A stretch of DNA of 64,000 bases from Actinomycetota bacterium. GTDB taxonomy: Bacteria; Actinomycetota; Actinomycetes; S36-B12; CAIYMF01. The position numbers and the translations under genes were made by a program. Positions 3,910 to 16,338 of the stretch are shown here, piece by piece (the stretch's first letter is position 1; the number at the start of each line of letters is the position of its first letter). The notes under the pieces are model-generated. The model saw only the letters and a program-made list of their open reading frames with translations, did not search any database and was not told the DNA's origin. Location: assembly GCA_009697815.1 (NCBI GenBank), contig WLRQ01000002.1, positions 1 through 64,000 of the forward strand, given 5' to 3'.

Positions 3910-4446
3910 TCAAGGAGCAACGTCCAGATCCAGCCCCGAGGCCACATCCCCCACCTCCACGAGCGCCACCTCGTGGTCGGCGAGGTAGGCCCTCGCACCT
4001 CGATCACCCTCGGCGGAGACGGACACCCCCACCCAGTGCCCGCGGCCGATCAGCACCGGATGGCCACGATCACCGTCGTAGCAGGCGGCCGCAAGATCGG
4101 CTCCCGAGGTCATGAGCCGCGTGACCGCCTCGGCCGTAAGTCCGGGCAGATCAACGAGACTGACCACGACCCGTTCGATGTCAGAGATCTCGTCGAGATG
4201 GGCGAGCCCCACCCGGAGGGAGGAGCCCATCCCCGCCGACCACCCGGCATTGACGACGACGTCGGCCCCCGGGACCTCGCCGAGCCAGGCACCGAGCACC
4301 ACCACCACGGGGTCGCAGCCCGCCTCTGCGAGCACCCGTACCGCGCGATCGACGAGGCGCTCGCCCTCGATCACGAACGGAGCCTTCGGGCCGCCGAACC
4401 GACGACCCTCGCCTGCGGCAAGCACCAAGCCCGCCGTGCGTGTCAC
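3910..4446 (-). CDS. MocA/MobA-like nucleotidyltransferase (likely molybdopterin cytidylyltransferase)
   Basis: N-terminal GLVLAAGEGRRFGGPKA NTP-transferase motif; between XdhC and mod genes in a CO dehydrogenase island. Confidence 0.82.
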   Translation of the reverse strand: MTRTAGLVLAAGEGRRFGGPKAPFVIEGERLVDRAVRVLAEAGCDPVVVVLGAWLGEVPGADVVVNAGWSAGMGSSLRVGLAHLDEISDIERVVVSLVDLPGLTAEAVTRLMTSGADLAAACYDGDRGHPVLIGRGHWVGVSVSAEGDRGARAYLADHEVALVEVGDVASGLDLDVAP

Positions 4447-5549
4447 CTCGGAGCGCCCGCGTGGATCGGGCCGCTCGAGGCCGTGAGCGACTGGCCCGAC
4501 CCACCCCAGCGAGCCTGCACGATCTCGGCCGCGATCGAGATCGCAGTCTCCTCGGGCGTGCGCGCCCCGAGGTCTAGGCCGATCGGCGAGTGGATACGCG
4601 CGATCTCGACGTCGGTCAGACCAGCCTCGCGCAACCGGACCACGCGGTCGTCGTGGGTACGCCGCGACCCCATCGCGCCGATGTAGGCAGCGGGGGTGCG
4701 CACCGCGGCAACCAGCGCAGGGACGTCGAATTTCGGGTCATGAGTCAGCACGCAGATCACCGTGCGTTGATCGACGGGCTGCGAGGCCAGCCAACGATGT
4801 GGCCAGTCGACGACGATCTCGTCGGCATCGGGGAATCGCTTGCGGGTGGCGAAGATCTCGCGCGCATCGACAATCGTCACGTGGAAGCCCAGGAGCTTCC
4901 CCGCCCGACACAGCGAAGCCGAGAAGTCGATGGCCCCGAAGACGTACATCCGCGGTGCCGGGGAGAACGACACCACGAAGATCTCGAGATCATTGCCCAG
5001 CCGCTCACCCTCCGGGCCGTAGTGCAGGAAGCCCGTGGTTCCCGACTCGAGCAACCCGCGCACATCGGCGCCGACCGTGTCGTCGAGGCGCTCGGTGCCA
5101 AGTCCGCCCTCGATCCCGTCGGCCCTGACGACGAGGTGGCGTCCGACATGGTGAGGGCCTCGCACGATAGTTGCGACGGCCACAGGGATCTCGGCCGCGA
5201 CACTCGCCGCGATTCCCGGCAGCTCGGGCCAGGTCAGCGCGGACACTTTCTCAATGAAGATCTCGAGGATGCCGCCACAGGTGAGCCCCACCGCGAACGC
5301 ATCGTCGTCGCTGACGCCGTAGGTCTGGTACTGGGAATCACCGGACTCCAGCACCTCGGTGCCGACCCCATACAGCGCACCTTCGACACAGCCGCCGCTG
5401 ACCGACCCGACGGCCTCGCCCGCCTCGGTGACGAGCATCGAGGCACCAGCGGGGCGCGGCGCAGATCGCCACGTCCGCACGACGGTTGCCATGGCAACAG
5501 ACTCACCGCGCTCGAAGGCGGCCATCAACGAGGGAAGGACCTCACGCAC
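4443..5549 (-). CDS. XdhC/CoxI family protein
   Basis: SVSGGCVEGALY, YIGAMGSRRTHDDRVVRLREAGL and RIHSPIGLDLGARTPEETAISIAAEI motifs. Confidence 0.92.
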   Translation of the reverse strand: MREVLPSLMAAFERGESVAMATVVRTWRSAPRPAGASMLVTEAGEAVGSVSGGCVEGALYGVGTEVLESGDSQYQTYGVSDDDAFAVGLTCGGILEIFIEKVSALTWPELPGIAASVAAEIPVAVATIVRGPHHVGRHLVVRADGIEGGLGTERLDDTVGADVRGLLESGTTGFLHYGPEGERLGNDLEIFVVSFSPAPRMYVFGAIDFSASLCRAGKLLGFHVTIVDAREIFATRKRFPDADEIVVDWPHRWLASQPVDQRTVICVLTHDPKFDVPALVAAVRTPAAYIGAMGSRRTHDDRVVRLREAGLTDVEIARIHSPIGLDLGARTPEETAISIAAEIVQARWGGSGQSLTASSGPIHAGAPR

Positions 5550-7560: not shown

Positions 7561-8202
7561 ATGGAACTGCTGAACACCTTCACCATCCCGTCCGACATCG
7601 CGACGGCATGGGCCACCCTTCAGGACGTCGAGAGCATCGCCCCCTGCGTGCCCGGCGCCACCCTGGAATCAAGTGACGGCGAGAACTTCACCGGCAGCGT
7701 CAAGGTCAAACTCGGACCCGTGAGCATGGTCTACGGCGGCCAGGCCCGGTTCGTCAGTCGCGACGAGGCCACGCACACCGCGGTGATCGAGGGTTCGGGC
7801 AAAGAGACCCGAGGCACCGGCACAGCGAAGGGCCTCGTCACCGCAGTGCTGGTCGAGGAGGCGCCCGATCGCACGCGCGTCGACATCGTCAGCGAACTCC
7901 AGATCACGGGCAAGGCCGCGCAGTTCGGCAAGGGTGTCATGCAGGAAGTCGCCGGTCGGATCATCGACCAGTTCGCGGGCAACCTCGCGGCCACCATGAC
8001 CGCATCCTCGGTCGCAGCGGCCGCGTCCTCGGCAAGCGGGGAGTCCGGGGTTCCGGCAGCCGCTCCCGCACCCCTTCCCAAGGTCGCCGACAGCATCGAC
8101 CTCCTCGGTACCGCCGGGGCACCCGTGCTCAAGCGACTCGTGCCCGCAGTCGTCGTGATCGTCGTCGTCGTCGCCCTGATCATCTGGGCGGTCAAGCGCT
8201 AG
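7561..8202 (+). CDS. coxG: CoxG-like SRPBCC protein with C-terminal TM anchor
   Basis: FTIPSDIATAWATLQDVESIAPCVPGATLE, typical CoxG; C-terminal hydrophobic VPAVVVIVVVVALIIWAVKR; immediately upstream of coxMSL. Confidence 0.88.
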   Translation: MELLNTFTIPSDIATAWATLQDVESIAPCVPGATLESSDGENFTGSVKVKLGPVSMVYGGQARFVSRDEATHTAVIEGSGKETRGTGTAKGLVTAVLVEEAPDRTRVDIVSELQITGKAAQFGKGVMQEVAGRIIDQFAGNLAATMTASSVAAAASSASGESGVPAAAPAPLPKVADSIDLLGTAGAPVLKRLVPAVVVIVVVVALIIWAVKR

Positions 8203-8291: not shown

Positions 8292-9161
8292 ATGCAAACC
8301 CCAGCACCCTTTGACTACGCGAAGGCCACCTCGGTCGCTGACGCGCTCGCGTTGCTCGACAAGCATGGAGAAGAAGCACGTGTCATTGCCGGCGGGCACA
8401 GCCTGCTGCCGATGATGAAGCTGCGCCTCGCACGTCCCGATGCCCTCATCGATCTCAACGACATCGCTGAGCTCCGGGGAATCCGCATCGAGGGCAACGA
8501 GATCGTCGTGGGCGCAATGGTGCGCCACGCCGAGATCCTGTCGTCGGCGATCCTGGCCGAGCACTACCCGATCTTCCGCGAGGCCGAGCACATGATCGCC
8601 GACCCGATCGTGCGCAACCGCGGCACCGTCGGCGGCTCGATGTGCCAGGCAGACCCTGCCGCAGACCTCTCGGCGGTGGGTTCGGCACTCAAGGGAACTG
8701 CCGTCATCCAGGGGGCAGCGGGCACCCGCACGGTCGCACTGCGCGACTTCCATGAGGGCCCGTACGAGACGAAGGTGCAGGCCGGCGAGATCCTCACGCA
8801 GGTCCGCTACCCGATCCGTCCCGGCGCGGGCAGCGCGTACGAGAAGGTCGAGCGCCGCGCTGGCGACTGGGCCGTGGCCTCGTCCGGAGTCTTCGTCGTC
8901 GTCAGTGGCGGCGTCGTCACCGACTGCGGTATCGGACTCACCGCCGTCGGAGCCGATCACTACTGCGCCCCCGCCGCCGAGGAGTTCCTCATCGGCAAGG
9001 CGCCGACCGAGGAGAACCTGGCGGCCGCAGCCAAGATCGCGGGCGACTCGTGCAACCCCGTCGCCGACCAGCGCGGCCCGGCCGACTACAAGGCACACCT
9101 CGCCTACGAACTCACCTTGCGTGCGCTCCGCCGCGCCGCCCGATCCAGCCAGGGAGCCTGA
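8292..9161 (+). CDS. coxM: Carbon monoxide dehydrogenase medium (FAD-binding) subunit
   Basis: VIAGGHSLLPMMKLRLARP and GTVGGSMCQADPAADL FAD-binding motifs. Confidence 0.93.
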   Translation: MQTPAPFDYAKATSVADALALLDKHGEEARVIAGGHSLLPMMKLRLARPDALIDLNDIAELRGIRIEGNEIVVGAMVRHAEILSSAILAEHYPIFREAEHMIADPIVRNRGTVGGSMCQADPAADLSAVGSALKGTAVIQGAAGTRTVALRDFHEGPYETKVQAGEILTQVRYPIRPGAGSAYEKVERRAGDWAVASSGVFVVVSGGVVTDCGIGLTAVGADHYCAPAAEEFLIGKAPTEENLAAAAKIAGDSCNPVADQRGPADYKAHLAYELTLRALRRAARSSQGA

Positions 9162-9163
9162 TC

Positions 9164-9639
9164 ATGCAGGTGACGATCACCGTGAACGGTGTCGAGCACT
9201 CGCGCGACATCGAGCCACGCATGTTGCTCGTGCACTTCATCCGCGACGAACTCCTCCTTCGAGGAACCCACTGGGGCTGCGACACCTCCAACTGCGGGGC
9301 GTGCACCCTCTGGGTCGACAACGAGCCGGTCAAGAGCTGCACGATGCTGGCGGTCATGGCCGACGGCAAGGCGATTCGCACCGTCGAGGGCCTCGCCAAT
9401 GGCGCGGAACTCGACCCCATCCAGAAGGGCTTCATGGAGTGCCACGGCCTCCAGTGCGGCTTCTGCACCCCCGGGATGATGATGACCTGCCGAGCCCTGC
9501 TCGATGGGAACCCGCACCCCACCGAGGCCGAGATCCGCGAAGGGATCTCCGGAAACATCTGCCGGTGCACCGGCTACAAGAACATCGTCGCAGCAGTCCA
9601 GTGGGCCGCTGAGAACCCCGCCACGAGTGAGGTGACCGC

Positions 9640-9643
<4 letters not shown>
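9164..9643 (+). CDS. coxS: Carbon monoxide dehydrogenase small (2x[2Fe-2S]) subunit
   Basis: CDTSNCGACTLWVDNEPVKSC and CGFCTPGMMM...CRCTGYKNIV clusters. Confidence 0.95.
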
Positions 9644-12033
<2,390 letters not shown>

Positions 12034-12037
12034 CCAG

Positions 12038-12970
12038 ATGACTGCGCCGGCGCTGAACGAACGGGCAGAATCCCTGCGGTTGCAGCGGATCCCGTTCGTT
12101 CACGCCCGCGTAGTGCTGGCCGAACGCCCCACCTCTGCCAAGCCCGGCGACGAAGCCCTCGTGACTCCTGATGGGGTCATCGAGGGCTTCGTCGGCGGCC
12201 AATGTGCCGAGTCCACGGTCCGGAGTCAGGCCCTCACACTGCTGGCCTCGGGTGACTCCATGCTCCTGCGCATCGCCCCGAACCCCGAGGCCGATCAACC
12301 CGGTAAGACCGTGGTGCACAACCCGTGTCTGTCGGGAGGAACGCTCGAGATCTTCCTCGAGCCCGTGATCCCCGTGCCGCTGGTCTCGATCCTCGGGGAC
12401 AGCCCGATCGCCGTCGCACTCGCAATCGTCGCGGCCGCGCTCGGTTATCAGGCGTCGGTATTCGTAGCCGCTGATCTGGCCGCCGCCGATGCGGTGATCG
12501 TGGCCAGCCACGGCAAGCGCGAGGAGGACACCCTCGTCGAGGCGGTACGGGCAGGCGTTCCGTACGTGGCTCTCGTCGCGAGCCCCAAGCGCGGCACTGC
12601 CGTGGTGGAGTCCCTCGATCTCACCCCCGACGAGCGCGCGCGCATCCACACCCCCGCCGGGCTCGACATCGGCGCACGTACACCGGCGGAGATCGCGCTC
12701 TCGGTCTACGCGGAACTCATCGCCGAGCGACCCCGTACCTCGCGCGTCTCACGCACCTCACCAGTGCCCGTGATCGCGCAGCCGCCAGTGACGTCGTTCG
12801 GAATGATCACCCTGGAGTCCGCGTCAGCCATCGACCCCGTGTGCGGAATGACGGTGGCCATCACCGATGACGCCCTGGTCGCCGACGTCGACGGCGTACG
12901 GCTCTGGTTCTGCTGCGCGGCATGTCGACGTGCTTACGTTGCCGATCCAGGGAAGTATCCGCTTTCGTGA
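12038..12970 (+). CDS. coxF: XdhC/CoxF-like maturation protein fused to C-terminal YHS domain
   Basis: XdhC-type VGGQCAE and RIHTPAGLDIGARTPAEIALSVYAELI; C-terminus IDPVCGMTVAITDDALVADVDGVRLWFCCAACRRAYVADPGKY matches a YHS domain. Confidence 0.85.
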   Translation: MTAPALNERAESLRLQRIPFVHARVVLAERPTSAKPGDEALVTPDGVIEGFVGGQCAESTVRSQALTLLASGDSMLLRIAPNPEADQPGKTVVHNPCLSGGTLEIFLEPVIPVPLVSILGDSPIAVALAIVAAALGYQASVFVAADLAAADAVIVASHGKREEDTLVEAVRAGVPYVALVASPKRGTAVVESLDLTPDERARIHTPAGLDIGARTPAEIALSVYAELIAERPRTSRVSRTSPVPVIAQPPVTSFGMITLESASAIDPVCGMTVAITDDALVADVDGVRLWFCCAACRRAYVADPGKYPLS

Positions 12971-13851
12971 CCATCTCCGATCTCGTCCCTGACATTCGCA
13001 CCCTGTCCGACCGCCTCGCCGAGGTGGGCTACCTCACCGATGCCGGCCTGGCCGCGGCGCTGTTCTGCGCCGTGCGATTGCCGCAGCCGTTGCTGCTCGA
13101 GGGTGAAGCCGGTGTTGGCAAGACTCAGGCCGCGAAGGCGCTCGCCGAACTGCTCGGCACTCCCTTGATCCGACTGCAGTGCTTCGAGGGGATCGACGCT
13201 GCAGAGGCGCTCTACGAGTGGAACTACCCGCGCCAACTCCTGGGTATCCGGCTCGCCGAGGCGCGCGGGGCCGACCTCGCCGAAGAGTCACTGTTCGGCG
13301 CCGACTACCTCATCCGCCGACCGCTCTTGGCCGCACTCCAGCACCCCGGGCCCATGCCGGCCGTGCTCCTCATCGACGAGATCGACCGCGCCGACGAGGA
13401 GTTCGAGGCATTCCTGTTCGAACTCCTCGCCGAGTCAACGGTCACGATCCCGGAGATCGGCACCCTCACGGCGACCCACCCGCCGATTGTGATCTTGACC
13501 TCGAATCGAACCCGAGACCTCCACGACGCCCTCAAGCGCCGCTGCCTCTATCACTGGATCGATTACCCACCGCTCCCCCGCGCCACCGCCATCGTGCGGT
13601 CACGGGTCCCCGAGGCCAGCCCCGAACTCGCGAGCGCGATCGCCGGCGCCGTCCAGCGGTTGCGCAGCCTCGACCTCCAGAAGCTGCCCGGGGTGGCGGA
13701 GGCCATCGACTGGGTCAACGCGGCAACCCTCATGGGCCTGAATGTCCTGGACCCCGACGCGGTCGAGGCCACGCTCGGGTCGGTGTTGAAGTACCGCGAA
13801 GACCACGACGTCGCCCGGGAGAAGGGCTTGGCCTGGATCGCGGATGCCTGA
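12967..13851 (+). CDS. coxD: MoxR-family AAA+ ATPase CoxD
   Basis: LLLEGEAGVGKTQAAKALA Walker A, VLLIDEIDRADEEFEAFLFELL Walker B; located between coxF- and coxE-like genes. Confidence 0.9.
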   Translation: MTISDLVPDIRTLSDRLAEVGYLTDAGLAAALFCAVRLPQPLLLEGEAGVGKTQAAKALAELLGTPLIRLQCFEGIDAAEALYEWNYPRQLLGIRLAEARGADLAEESLFGADYLIRRPLLAALQHPGPMPAVLLIDEIDRADEEFEAFLFELLAESTVTIPEIGTLTATHPPIVILTSNRTRDLHDALKRRCLYHWIDYPPLPRATAIVRSRVPEASPELASAIAGAVQRLRSLDLQKLPGVAEAIDWVNAATLMGLNVLDPDAVEATLGSVLKYREDHDVAREKGLAWIADA

Positions 13852-15100
13852 CCTAGCCGATATTGCCGCAACCTTCGGCCATCTCCTGCACGAGGCCGGG
13901 GTTCCGGTCACGCCCGAGCGCAGTGCCCGCTTCGCCCAAGTGATCGCTTTGGCCGAGCCCACGACTGTCGTCGACCTCGCGGCACTCGGGCGCACCACAC
14001 TCGTCAGCGGCCGCGACCAGATCGAGATCTTCGATCGGGTGTTCTCCCAAGTCTTCCGGGGATTCCTGGACATGGCCGAGTTCCGCGGTGACAGCAACGT
14101 AGATCCACCCCCGTCCTCCCTCCCGGGCGACACAGCACCGGGAGATCCCGGGCGCACAGGCGAGACCCACACCCGTCCCCGCGGGGCCAGCGGGCTCCCA
14201 GGCGACGACGAGCAGGGGTCTCCGGAGGAGGAAGAGAGCGAGTCAGTGCTCGCCGCAGTGAGCGTCGAGGAACGTCTGGGCGAGAAGGACTTCGCCGATT
14301 GTTCCGACGACGAGCTGCGCCTGATCAACGCCCTCATCGCCCGACTGGCATTCCTTCCGCCGCTACGTCTGGCCCGTCGCCGTCGACGTCACAACGCGGG
14401 AACCCGGCTCGATGTCCGAGCCACGTTGCGGGCCTCCCATCGCACTTCGGGAGATCCCGTCACCCGCGTCTACCGCCGTAACACCCGGCGGCCGCGTCGA
14501 GTGGTGCTGATCGCCGATGTGTCCGGGTCGATGGAGCCCTACGCCCGCATCTACTTGCACCTCATGCGAGGTGCGGTGCGCGCACTCGGCTCCGAGGCGT
14601 TCGTATTTGCCACCCGACTAACGCGCCTCACGCGCCAATTGGGCGACACCCACCCCGACGTCGCCTACCGAAACGCCGCGCTGGCCGCGCCCGACTGGTC
14701 TGGTGGCACCCGCATCGGGGTGGCGCTGAAGACCTTCATCGATCAGCACGGCCGTCGAGGAATGGCGCGCGGCGCGGTCGTGGTGATCGTCTCCGACGGG
14801 TGGGAGGTCGACGACCCCAGAATCATTTCGCGCAGCATGGAGCAGCTCGCCCGCCTGGCGTTCCACATCATCTGGGTGAACCCGAGGAAAGCAGCCACGG
14901 GCTACGCGCCCCTCGTCGGCGGTATGGCTGCCGCGATGCCCTATGTCGACACATTCGTGAGCGGACACTCCCTCGGAGCACTCGAGGCCGTCATGGCGGC
15001 GATCCGAGACTCCGCCAACGATGGGCGCCGCCGCTCTACGCCTGGGTCGATCCGGCTGCCCGAGCTCACGCCCCTCCTCGCGGCCGCCGACGCGCCATGA
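13844..15100 (+). CDS. coxE: VWA-domain protein CoxE
   Basis: VVLIADVSGSMEPYARIYLHLMRG MIDAS motif; VIVSDGWEVDDP; cox cluster position. Confidence 0.9.
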   Translation: MPDLADIAATFGHLLHEAGVPVTPERSARFAQVIALAEPTTVVDLAALGRTTLVSGRDQIEIFDRVFSQVFRGFLDMAEFRGDSNVDPPPSSLPGDTAPGDPGRTGETHTRPRGASGLPGDDEQGSPEEEESESVLAAVSVEERLGEKDFADCSDDELRLINALIARLAFLPPLRLARRRRRHNAGTRLDVRATLRASHRTSGDPVTRVYRRNTRRPRRVVLIADVSGSMEPYARIYLHLMRGAVRALGSEAFVFATRLTRLTRQLGDTHPDVAYRNAALAAPDWSGGTRIGVALKTFIDQHGRRGMARGAVVVIVSDGWEVDDPRIISRSMEQLARLAFHIIWVNPRKAATGYAPLVGGMAAAMPYVDTFVSGHSLGALEAVMAAIRDSANDGRRRSTPGSIRLPELTPLLAAADAP

Positions 15101-16338
15101 TGACCCCCATGCGAACCGTGTCGGAGCACCAGGCGATCGTGCTGGCCAACACCGATGTGCTCGGGCAGGTTGATGTCCCACTACTCGACGCCCTCGGCCA
15201 GTGTCTCGCCAGTGACATCGTCGCCCCCTGGCCCCTCCCGTCGTTCGACAACAGTTCGATGGACGGCTACGCGGTGATCTCCGCCGACGTGGCAGACGCC
15301 TCGGAAGCCAACCCGCGCGCACTCAGAGTCATCGCGGACGCAGCCGCGGGGTCATCCGGTCACCTCGAGGTGGTGTCCGGCACGGCAGTGCGCATCATGA
15401 CCGGCGCCCCGATCCCCTCTGGGGCCGATGCGGTGGTGCCCATCGAGGCGACCAACGGCGGCATTGCGGACGTGCTCGTCCGCGAGGCCGTCACGTCGGG
15501 CTCCTACGTGCGCTGGGCCGGCGAGGATGTCACCGCGGGATCTGTCGTGATGAGAGCCGGAACCGTGGTCACCGAGAGGTCTCTCGCGGTCCTGGCCTCA
15601 GTCGGGCGCGCGAGTGTCCCCGTCTTCCGTCGCCCTCGAGTCGTGGTTATCTCCACAGGTGACGAACTCGTCGAGCCCGGCACGGTGCTCTCACATGGCC
15701 GGATCATCGATTCGAACGGTGTGATGCTCACCGCGTGTGCTCGCGAAGCTGGTGCCGTGGCGCACAGGGCACCCCTCGTGCGCGACCAGGAGGATGAGGT
15801 TCGCGCCGCGCTCGATCTGGCAGCGGCCGATGCCGACATCATCGTCACCAGCGGCGGCGTGAGCATGGGCGCCTACGACACTATGAAAGCCGTGCTCTCG
15901 CGCACCGGCGAAGTCGAATTCGCCAGGGTGGCGATGCATCCCGGAATGCCCCAAGGCACTGGGCTCGTGCGGTTTTCCGGTGGTCGGCACGTACGCATCG
16001 TGACACTTCCCGGGAATCCAGTCAGTTCGTTCATCTCGTTCGAGCTCTTCGTGCGCCCCCTGATCCGGGCGATGATGGGCTTCACTGAGGGATCGCGCCC
16101 TGGTGAACGTGCACGATCCGACGAGGCCTTCGACTCCCCCGTAGCGAAGCAGCAATATGTGCGTGCGGTCCTAAGTCGCGCATCCGATGGCTCTCGACGA
16201 GTGCGACCGGTGGGGGGCCAGGGATCGCACGTGGTCGGCGGTTTGGCTCAGGCAGACTGCTTGGTCGTCGTGCCTGTCGGGGTTGGCCGAGTCGAGGTCG
16301 GCAGCGAGGTCGAGGTCATAGACCTCACCCGTCGGTAA
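15097..16338 (+). CDS. moeA: Molybdopterin molybdenumtransferase MoeA
   Basis: PSFDNSSMDGYAV, RIMTGAPIPSGADAVVPIE, VISTGDELVEPG, IVTSGGVSMGAYD motifs; ATGA overlap with coxE. Confidence 0.94.
   Translation: MMTPMRTVSEHQAIVLANTDVLGQVDVPLLDALGQCLASDIVAPWPLPSFDNSSMDGYAVISADVADASEANPRALRVIADAAAGSSGHLEVVSGTAVRIMTGAPIPSGADAVVPIEATNGGIADVLVREAVTSGSYVRWAGEDVTAGSVVMRAGTVVTERSLAVLASVGRASVPVFRRPRVVVISTGDELVEPGTVLSHGRIIDSNGVMLTACAREAGAVAHRAPLVRDQEDEVRAALDLAAADADIIVTSGGVSMGAYDTMKAVLSRTGEVEFARVAMHPGMPQGTGLVRFSGGRHVRIVTLPGNPVSSFISFELFVRPLIRAMMGFTEGSRPGERARSDEAFDSPVAKQQYVRAVLSRASDGSRRVRPVGGQGSHVVGGLAQADCLVVVPVGVGRVEVGSEVEVIDLTRR

Follow-up and report, generated by a model that had tools for sequence, protein, structure and literature searches.

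A YHS domain at the C-terminus of CoxF in form I carbon monoxide dehydrogenase clusters: a candidate module for copper handling

The maturation factor CoxF joins an XdhC-type body to a C-terminal YHS domain, and this fusion is real, conserved and specific: it is widespread rather than private to the genome in which it was noticed, and in the genomes searched it is restricted to form I clusters of aerobic carbon monoxide dehydrogenase (CODH). The active site of aerobic CODH is a Mo-S-Cu centre, and form I is the enzyme type that needs copper. On balance, CoxF of form I CODH is probably an XdhC-type chaperone with its own tethered copper-handling domain for this site, a reading that we hold with modest confidence. 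The fusion and its form I restriction appear to be undescribed, although a copper role of CoxF has already been proposed: no paper on XdhC together with a YHS domain, or on a YHS domain together with carbon monoxide dehydrogenase, was found in a search that left most subscription papers and all preprints outside its range. So far, ideas on the route of copper to the Mo-S-Cu centre, the site of aerobic CO burning, have come from one organism and a motif-based proposal. CoxF-YHS is a testable candidate for copper insertion into the CO-burning enzyme, which is found in many bacteria of soil and water.

The coxF gene and its YHS domain

The window (the whole stretch of DNA analysed, 64,000 nucleotides) holds on its + strand a cluster in the order coxG-coxM-coxS-coxL-coxF-coxD-coxE-moeA. 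It comprises coxG (7561-8202, Pfam PF06240), the FAD subunit gene coxM (8292-9161, assigned from the ORF list and cluster position), the small [2Fe-2S] subunit gene coxS (9164-9643, from the ORF list, with the start picked by eye), coxL (9640-12033), coxF (12038-12970), coxD for a MoxR-type AAA+ ATPase (12967-13851, Pfam AAA_5), coxE for a von Willebrand-type protein (13844-15100, Pfam VWA_CoxE) and a moeA-type gene (15097-16338, Pfam MoeA_N and MoeA_C). CoxL is of form I, scoring 1344.9 bits with TIGR02416 against a cut-off of 991 and carrying the active-site motif AYACSFR (10753-10773), so that coxF is encoded alongside form I coxMSL. Among the nearest named relatives of the genome in the CoxL-based sampling of public genomes are 'Candidatus Nanopelagicales' MAGs.

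The gene directly after coxL had been called XdhC/CoxF-like in an earlier note made from the sequence, and both parts of that call are borne out. It is a single unbroken reading frame of 310 aa from the ATG at 12038 to the TGA at 12970, and its end overlaps coxD, which begins with GTG at 12967. Domains XdhC_CoxI (residues 16-79, 12083-12274; PF02625, E 2.7e-15) and XdhC_C, a Rossmann domain (residues 117-227, 12386-12718; PF13478, E 3.9e-19), both lie well above their Pfam cut-offs, and the protein attains the cut-off of none of the NCBIfam models. By family scores and a C-x-S-x-G signature it groups with known CoxF and not with CoxI/XdhC paralogs.

The YHS/TRASH domain makes up the last 47 residues (264-310, 12827-12967) behind a disordered linker (residues 238-260, 12749-12817), and the earlier note had located it correctly at 12830-12967. 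The window copy alone scores 17.9 bits with Pfam YHS (PF04945) over residues 265-307 (E 0.003), below the cut-off of 30.3, and is matched by a TRASH model at E 0.0035; of the 48 sequences in the family alignment, 33 match Pfam YHS with E values no higher than 0.01 (best 1e-12). A YHS profile built from relatives, leaving out the window protein and its two nearest relatives, gives CoxF 75.7 bits and the runner-up 5.9 among 1,131 frames in the window. The YHS assignment is therefore secure and a chance match is ruled out; a private oddity or an assembly fusion is likewise ruled out, since relatives within the genus and elsewhere in the phylum share the architecture. Identity to two relatives of the same genus is 68-81% in the YHS part and 42-54% in the linker, the fastest-diverging part, which indicates that the domain is under selection. 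Across 48 actinobacterial sequences, D266, P267, C269, M271, V273, F291, C292 and C296 are invariant, and these include the Asp and all three Cys of the YHS metal site (D266, C269, C292 and C296), the candidate ligands.

The AlphaFold2 model of CoxF (mean pLDDT 88) consists of a confident XdhC body (residues 1-237) that matches the solved XdhC structures 2we8 and 3on5, the disordered linker (pLDDT <50) and, from about residue 261, a small domain that is again modelled confidently. Modelled by itself, the YHS part reaches a pLDDT of 90 and is composed of beta strands and one helix. In the PDB it matches alpha-subunit chains of monooxygenases, ribosomal L24e and a TRASH domain of ZMYM, none of them significantly for 53 residues (no E below 0.001). 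By sequence, the nearest YHS relatives outside CoxF are those of heavy-metal P-type ATPases.

Distribution and restriction to form I loci

To estimate the extent of the fusion, form I loci of Actinomycetota were collected by their CoxL, irrespective of CoxF architecture. This gave 80 loci, in which 53 of the 72 complete CoxF carry YHS. When loci from other searches are added, the domain is found in 103 of 130 distinct CoxF. Other phyla, sampled through plasmid records only, contribute YHS-bearing CoxF from Thermomicrobium roseum (Thermomicrobia), Paraburkholderia and Caballeronia (Burkholderiales) and the haloarchaeon Natronorubrum, whose protein additionally has a CCGGG stretch. In Mycobacteriaceae, 59 of the 61 CoxF matches able to show it extend through YHS, and among the matches listed for 297 Actinomycetota genomes CoxF-type proteins run through the domain while other XdhC stop short; in both searches the query included YHS, so fused proteins were favoured. 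One CoxF from an AYRCSFR locus (L159:6804-8288, - strand) has two tandem C-terminal YHS domains. A second double-YHS ORF (L199:7007-7618, - strand) was rejected as a CoxF, being a membrane protein with two YHS domains at its C-terminus.

A form I motif is present in the same locus for 94 of the 103 fusions, and for another 8 the contig stops short of the coxL motif. The remaining one adjoins a Caballeronia CoxL (L035:2788-5232) that reads AYRCSFM instead of AYRCSFR and shares 92% identity with a form I enzyme; every fusion with coxL visible on its contig thus adjoins form I CoxL. None of 60 XdhC/CoxI paralogs from the same loci carries the domain (Fisher p ~1e-14 for CoxF versus paralogs in the unbiased set), and it was not seen in four non-form-I clusters equipped with XdhC, coxD and coxE. 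YHS as a general XdhC add-on is rejected on the paralog count. The window genome repeats this pattern. Its second xanthine oxidase-family enzyme (contig C50:1172-1909) has the form II-type motif AYRGAGR, its other XdhC gene, an internal control (4443-5549, - strand), matches only PF02625 and PF13478, and CoxF is the sole YHS match in the whole genome. Together, the exclusive position beside form I enzymes, the paralogs and the non-form-I clusters tie the domain to the copper-containing enzyme. The restriction to form I cox clusters raised in the earlier note is thereby upheld for the genomes searched, and the frequency beside non-CODH xanthine dehydrogenases, which that note had named as the comparison to make, is far from equal. 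For annotators, YHS on CoxF would serve as a marker by which form I (copper) clusters can be told apart from form II look-alikes.

The domain is not universal. Nine alphaproteobacterial form I plasmid clusters, including pHCG3 of Oligotropha carboxidovorans, are devoid of it, as are two or three mycobacterial CoxF that are accompanied by coxD and coxE and have no Cys/His tail either. On an unrooted tree of CoxF bodies, the YHS label requires 9 changes, and YHS-less proteins are nested inside YHS-bearing groups. This nesting suggests an old fusion that was lost recurrently, with the caveat that an unrooted tree alone cannot separate gain from loss. In Deinococcus sp. AJ005 (L034:7971-9032), the YHS-like end of CoxF is degenerate, with Asp in place of the first Cys and FT in place of FC; having lost two ligands, it represents a natural mutant of the putative site.

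In five loci (L052, L067, L070, L078 and L089), a coxF without YHS ends in a short Cys/His-rich tail (VCAEHCH, EHHCDAHGH, HHRCH, ACHGHG or GHCCG). A Cys plus three or more Cys/His among the final 15 residues occurs in 5 of about 25 YHS-less CoxF and in 0 of 61 paralogs; that such tails may substitute for YHS is suggestive, the sequences being few and partly related. No detached YHS gene is found within 600 bases downstream in the YHS-less actinobacterial loci. All four Rhodobacterales form I plasmid clusters in the set analysed (CoxL SYRCSFR, CoxF without YHS) have after coxF a mostly unannotated ORF of 33-40 aa that ends in K[FS]PCC (L038:6764-6886, L204:11416-11517, L205:11291-11413 and L206:11885-11986), a candidate for a separate Cys-Cys metal peptide. 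In Nonomuraea and related actinobacteria (L039, L053, L055-L057, L062, L073, L075, L077, L078, L080, L083, L091 and L110), form I coxL is followed by a CoxF without YHS and coxD/coxE are absent nearby; these enzymes may mature differently or may not be true CODH.

Proposed copper loading and alternative roles

Pelzmann et al. (2014, PMC4240915) showed that the CODH of coxE and coxF mutants of O. carboxidovorans is Cu-free, yet its Mo is sulfurated. They proposed that CoxF supplies Cu via two motifs, MCPSHGTM in the body and a phytase-like one at the C-terminus. This body motif corresponds to the C-x-S-x-G signature, which is found in 129 of 130 CoxF, with or without YHS, and was not seen at that site in XdhC paralogs.

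We infer that the YHS domain of CoxF binds copper, presumably as Cu(I) and not Cu(II), and that the bound copper would reach CODH. The XdhC body would dock on apo-CODH at the sulfurated Mo site, while the YHS domain on its flexible linker would hold one copper ion, drawn from the cytosolic pool, in a Cys3(Asp) site formed by C269, C292, C296 and D266. The domain could then swing in and pass on its Cu(I), with the Mo-S site and the cysteine in the AYxCSFR loop of CoxL as recipients. Passage to the Mo-S site would perhaps run via the body cysteine of C-x-S-x-G, with YHS providing the carriage in most lineages. A cytosolic copper pathway is present in the window genome, in which a CopZ-like HMA protein (contig C19:12524-12941, - strand) adjoins an ORF of 758 aa that also bears HMA and probably encodes a copper ATPase. 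More tentatively, as a possible rather than a probable account, CoxF-YHS could be a swinging-arm Cu(I) loader that arose as an ancestral form I-specific fusion, was duplicated in at least one lineage and repeatedly lost, and in some lineages was replaced by Cys/His tails or perhaps by a small Cys-Cys protein.

Copper handling is favoured by the high frequency of the fusion, the form I restriction, the invariant ligands, the kinship of the domain with YHS of heavy-metal P-type ATPases, the tandem YHS, the Cys/His tails, the disordered linker between ordered domains and the CopZ-like protein of the window genome, as well as by the published Oligotropha mutants and the Cu2+ response of a mycobacterial YHS domain. 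Tandem domains and Cys/His tails are the expected outcome of a selected metal-binding tail, and on small numbers they are suggestive. Against it count the YHS-like folds in monooxygenase subunits and ribosomal L24e, which are not copper carriers there, the two ligands lost in Deinococcus and the mycobacterial CoxF with neither domain nor tail. The suggestion in the earlier note of a copper delivery module stands in part: the domain is tied to the copper-containing enzyme, but it is not essential everywhere, since its absence from the alphaproteobacterial clusters means that delivery is possible without it, and the fusion occurs far beyond this genome.

Delivery has two serious rivals, a gate that senses copper and a docking module that binds zinc. 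As a gate, YHS would bind copper and thereby activate CoxF, which would confine the completion of CODH to times of copper supply; the delivered ion would come from elsewhere (the C-x-S-x-G body motif, CoxE or CopZ). The one YHS fusion studied biochemically, an adenylyl cyclase, fits such a role, and the near-constant presence of the body motif regardless of YHS means that transfer could rest on the body. CoxF is, however, an assembly factor whose loss gives Cu-free CODH, which makes a separate sensor less direct, and tandem domains and substitution by short tails suit carrying better than conformational switching; we regard gating as unlikely. Slightly less likely still is a structural role in which YHS binds Zn and docks CoxF on form I CODH, CoxD or CoxE. 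An apparent treble-clef/TRASH-type fold, with L24e and ZMYM among its (non-significant) structural neighbours, agrees with it. The Asp/Cys3 pattern, however, is that of copper ATPases, which also supply the closest relatives by sequence, and YHS is missing from form II-type clusters even though these possess coxD, coxE and XdhC. Raw counts also pair the presence of YHS with that of coxD/coxE, and strongly so; a link between their losses was nevertheless rejected, because the signal comes mostly from one clade and the tree offers too few independent pairs. The invariant cysteines might instead carry persulfide or reduce Cu(II) to aid sulfuration, as XdhC partners a cysteine desulfurase in Moco sulfuration. 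This is very improbable, given that sulfuration is common to xanthine dehydrogenase-type enzymes, whose XdhCs in these loci lack YHS (0/60), and that CODH of the Oligotropha coxF mutant keeps sulfurated Mo while lacking Cu (PMC4240915). For the preferred reading, a conserved domain of metal-binding type that, in the genomes searched, is confined to the assembly factor of form I offers specific residues for mutation and a simple in vitro transfer assay.

Comparison with known systems

XdhC of the Rhodobacter capsulatus type, with the solved relatives named above, shares the two-domain fold of the CoxF body. In contrast to CoxF, it serves Cu-free enzymes, has CGG in place of C-x-S-x-G where the site is readable, and is without YHS. 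The YHS domains of copper P-type ATPases share the Asp/Cys3 pattern with CoxF, but they are borne on a pump. The mycobacterial YHS domain of the M. phlei adenylyl cyclase responds specifically to Cu2+, and its proposed Cu ligands, an Asp and three Cys, match D266, C269, C292 and C296 (PMC4626032). The C-terminal position of the fusion is also shared, yet on the cyclase the domain is a Cu2+ sensor and not a known donor.

CoxF of Oligotropha (Afipia) carboxidovorans OM5 (WP_013913733.1) resembles the window protein in its XdhC body, its C-x-S-x-G motif and its location in a form I cox cluster. The gene order differs, coxL-D-E-F in Oligotropha as opposed to coxL-coxF-coxD-coxE in the window, and the protein stops after the XdhC body without YHS, the published Cu model relying on the body motif and the phytase-like tail. 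If the swinging-arm reading is true, the current model would be based on a derived simplification, the unfused CoxF of Oligotropha.
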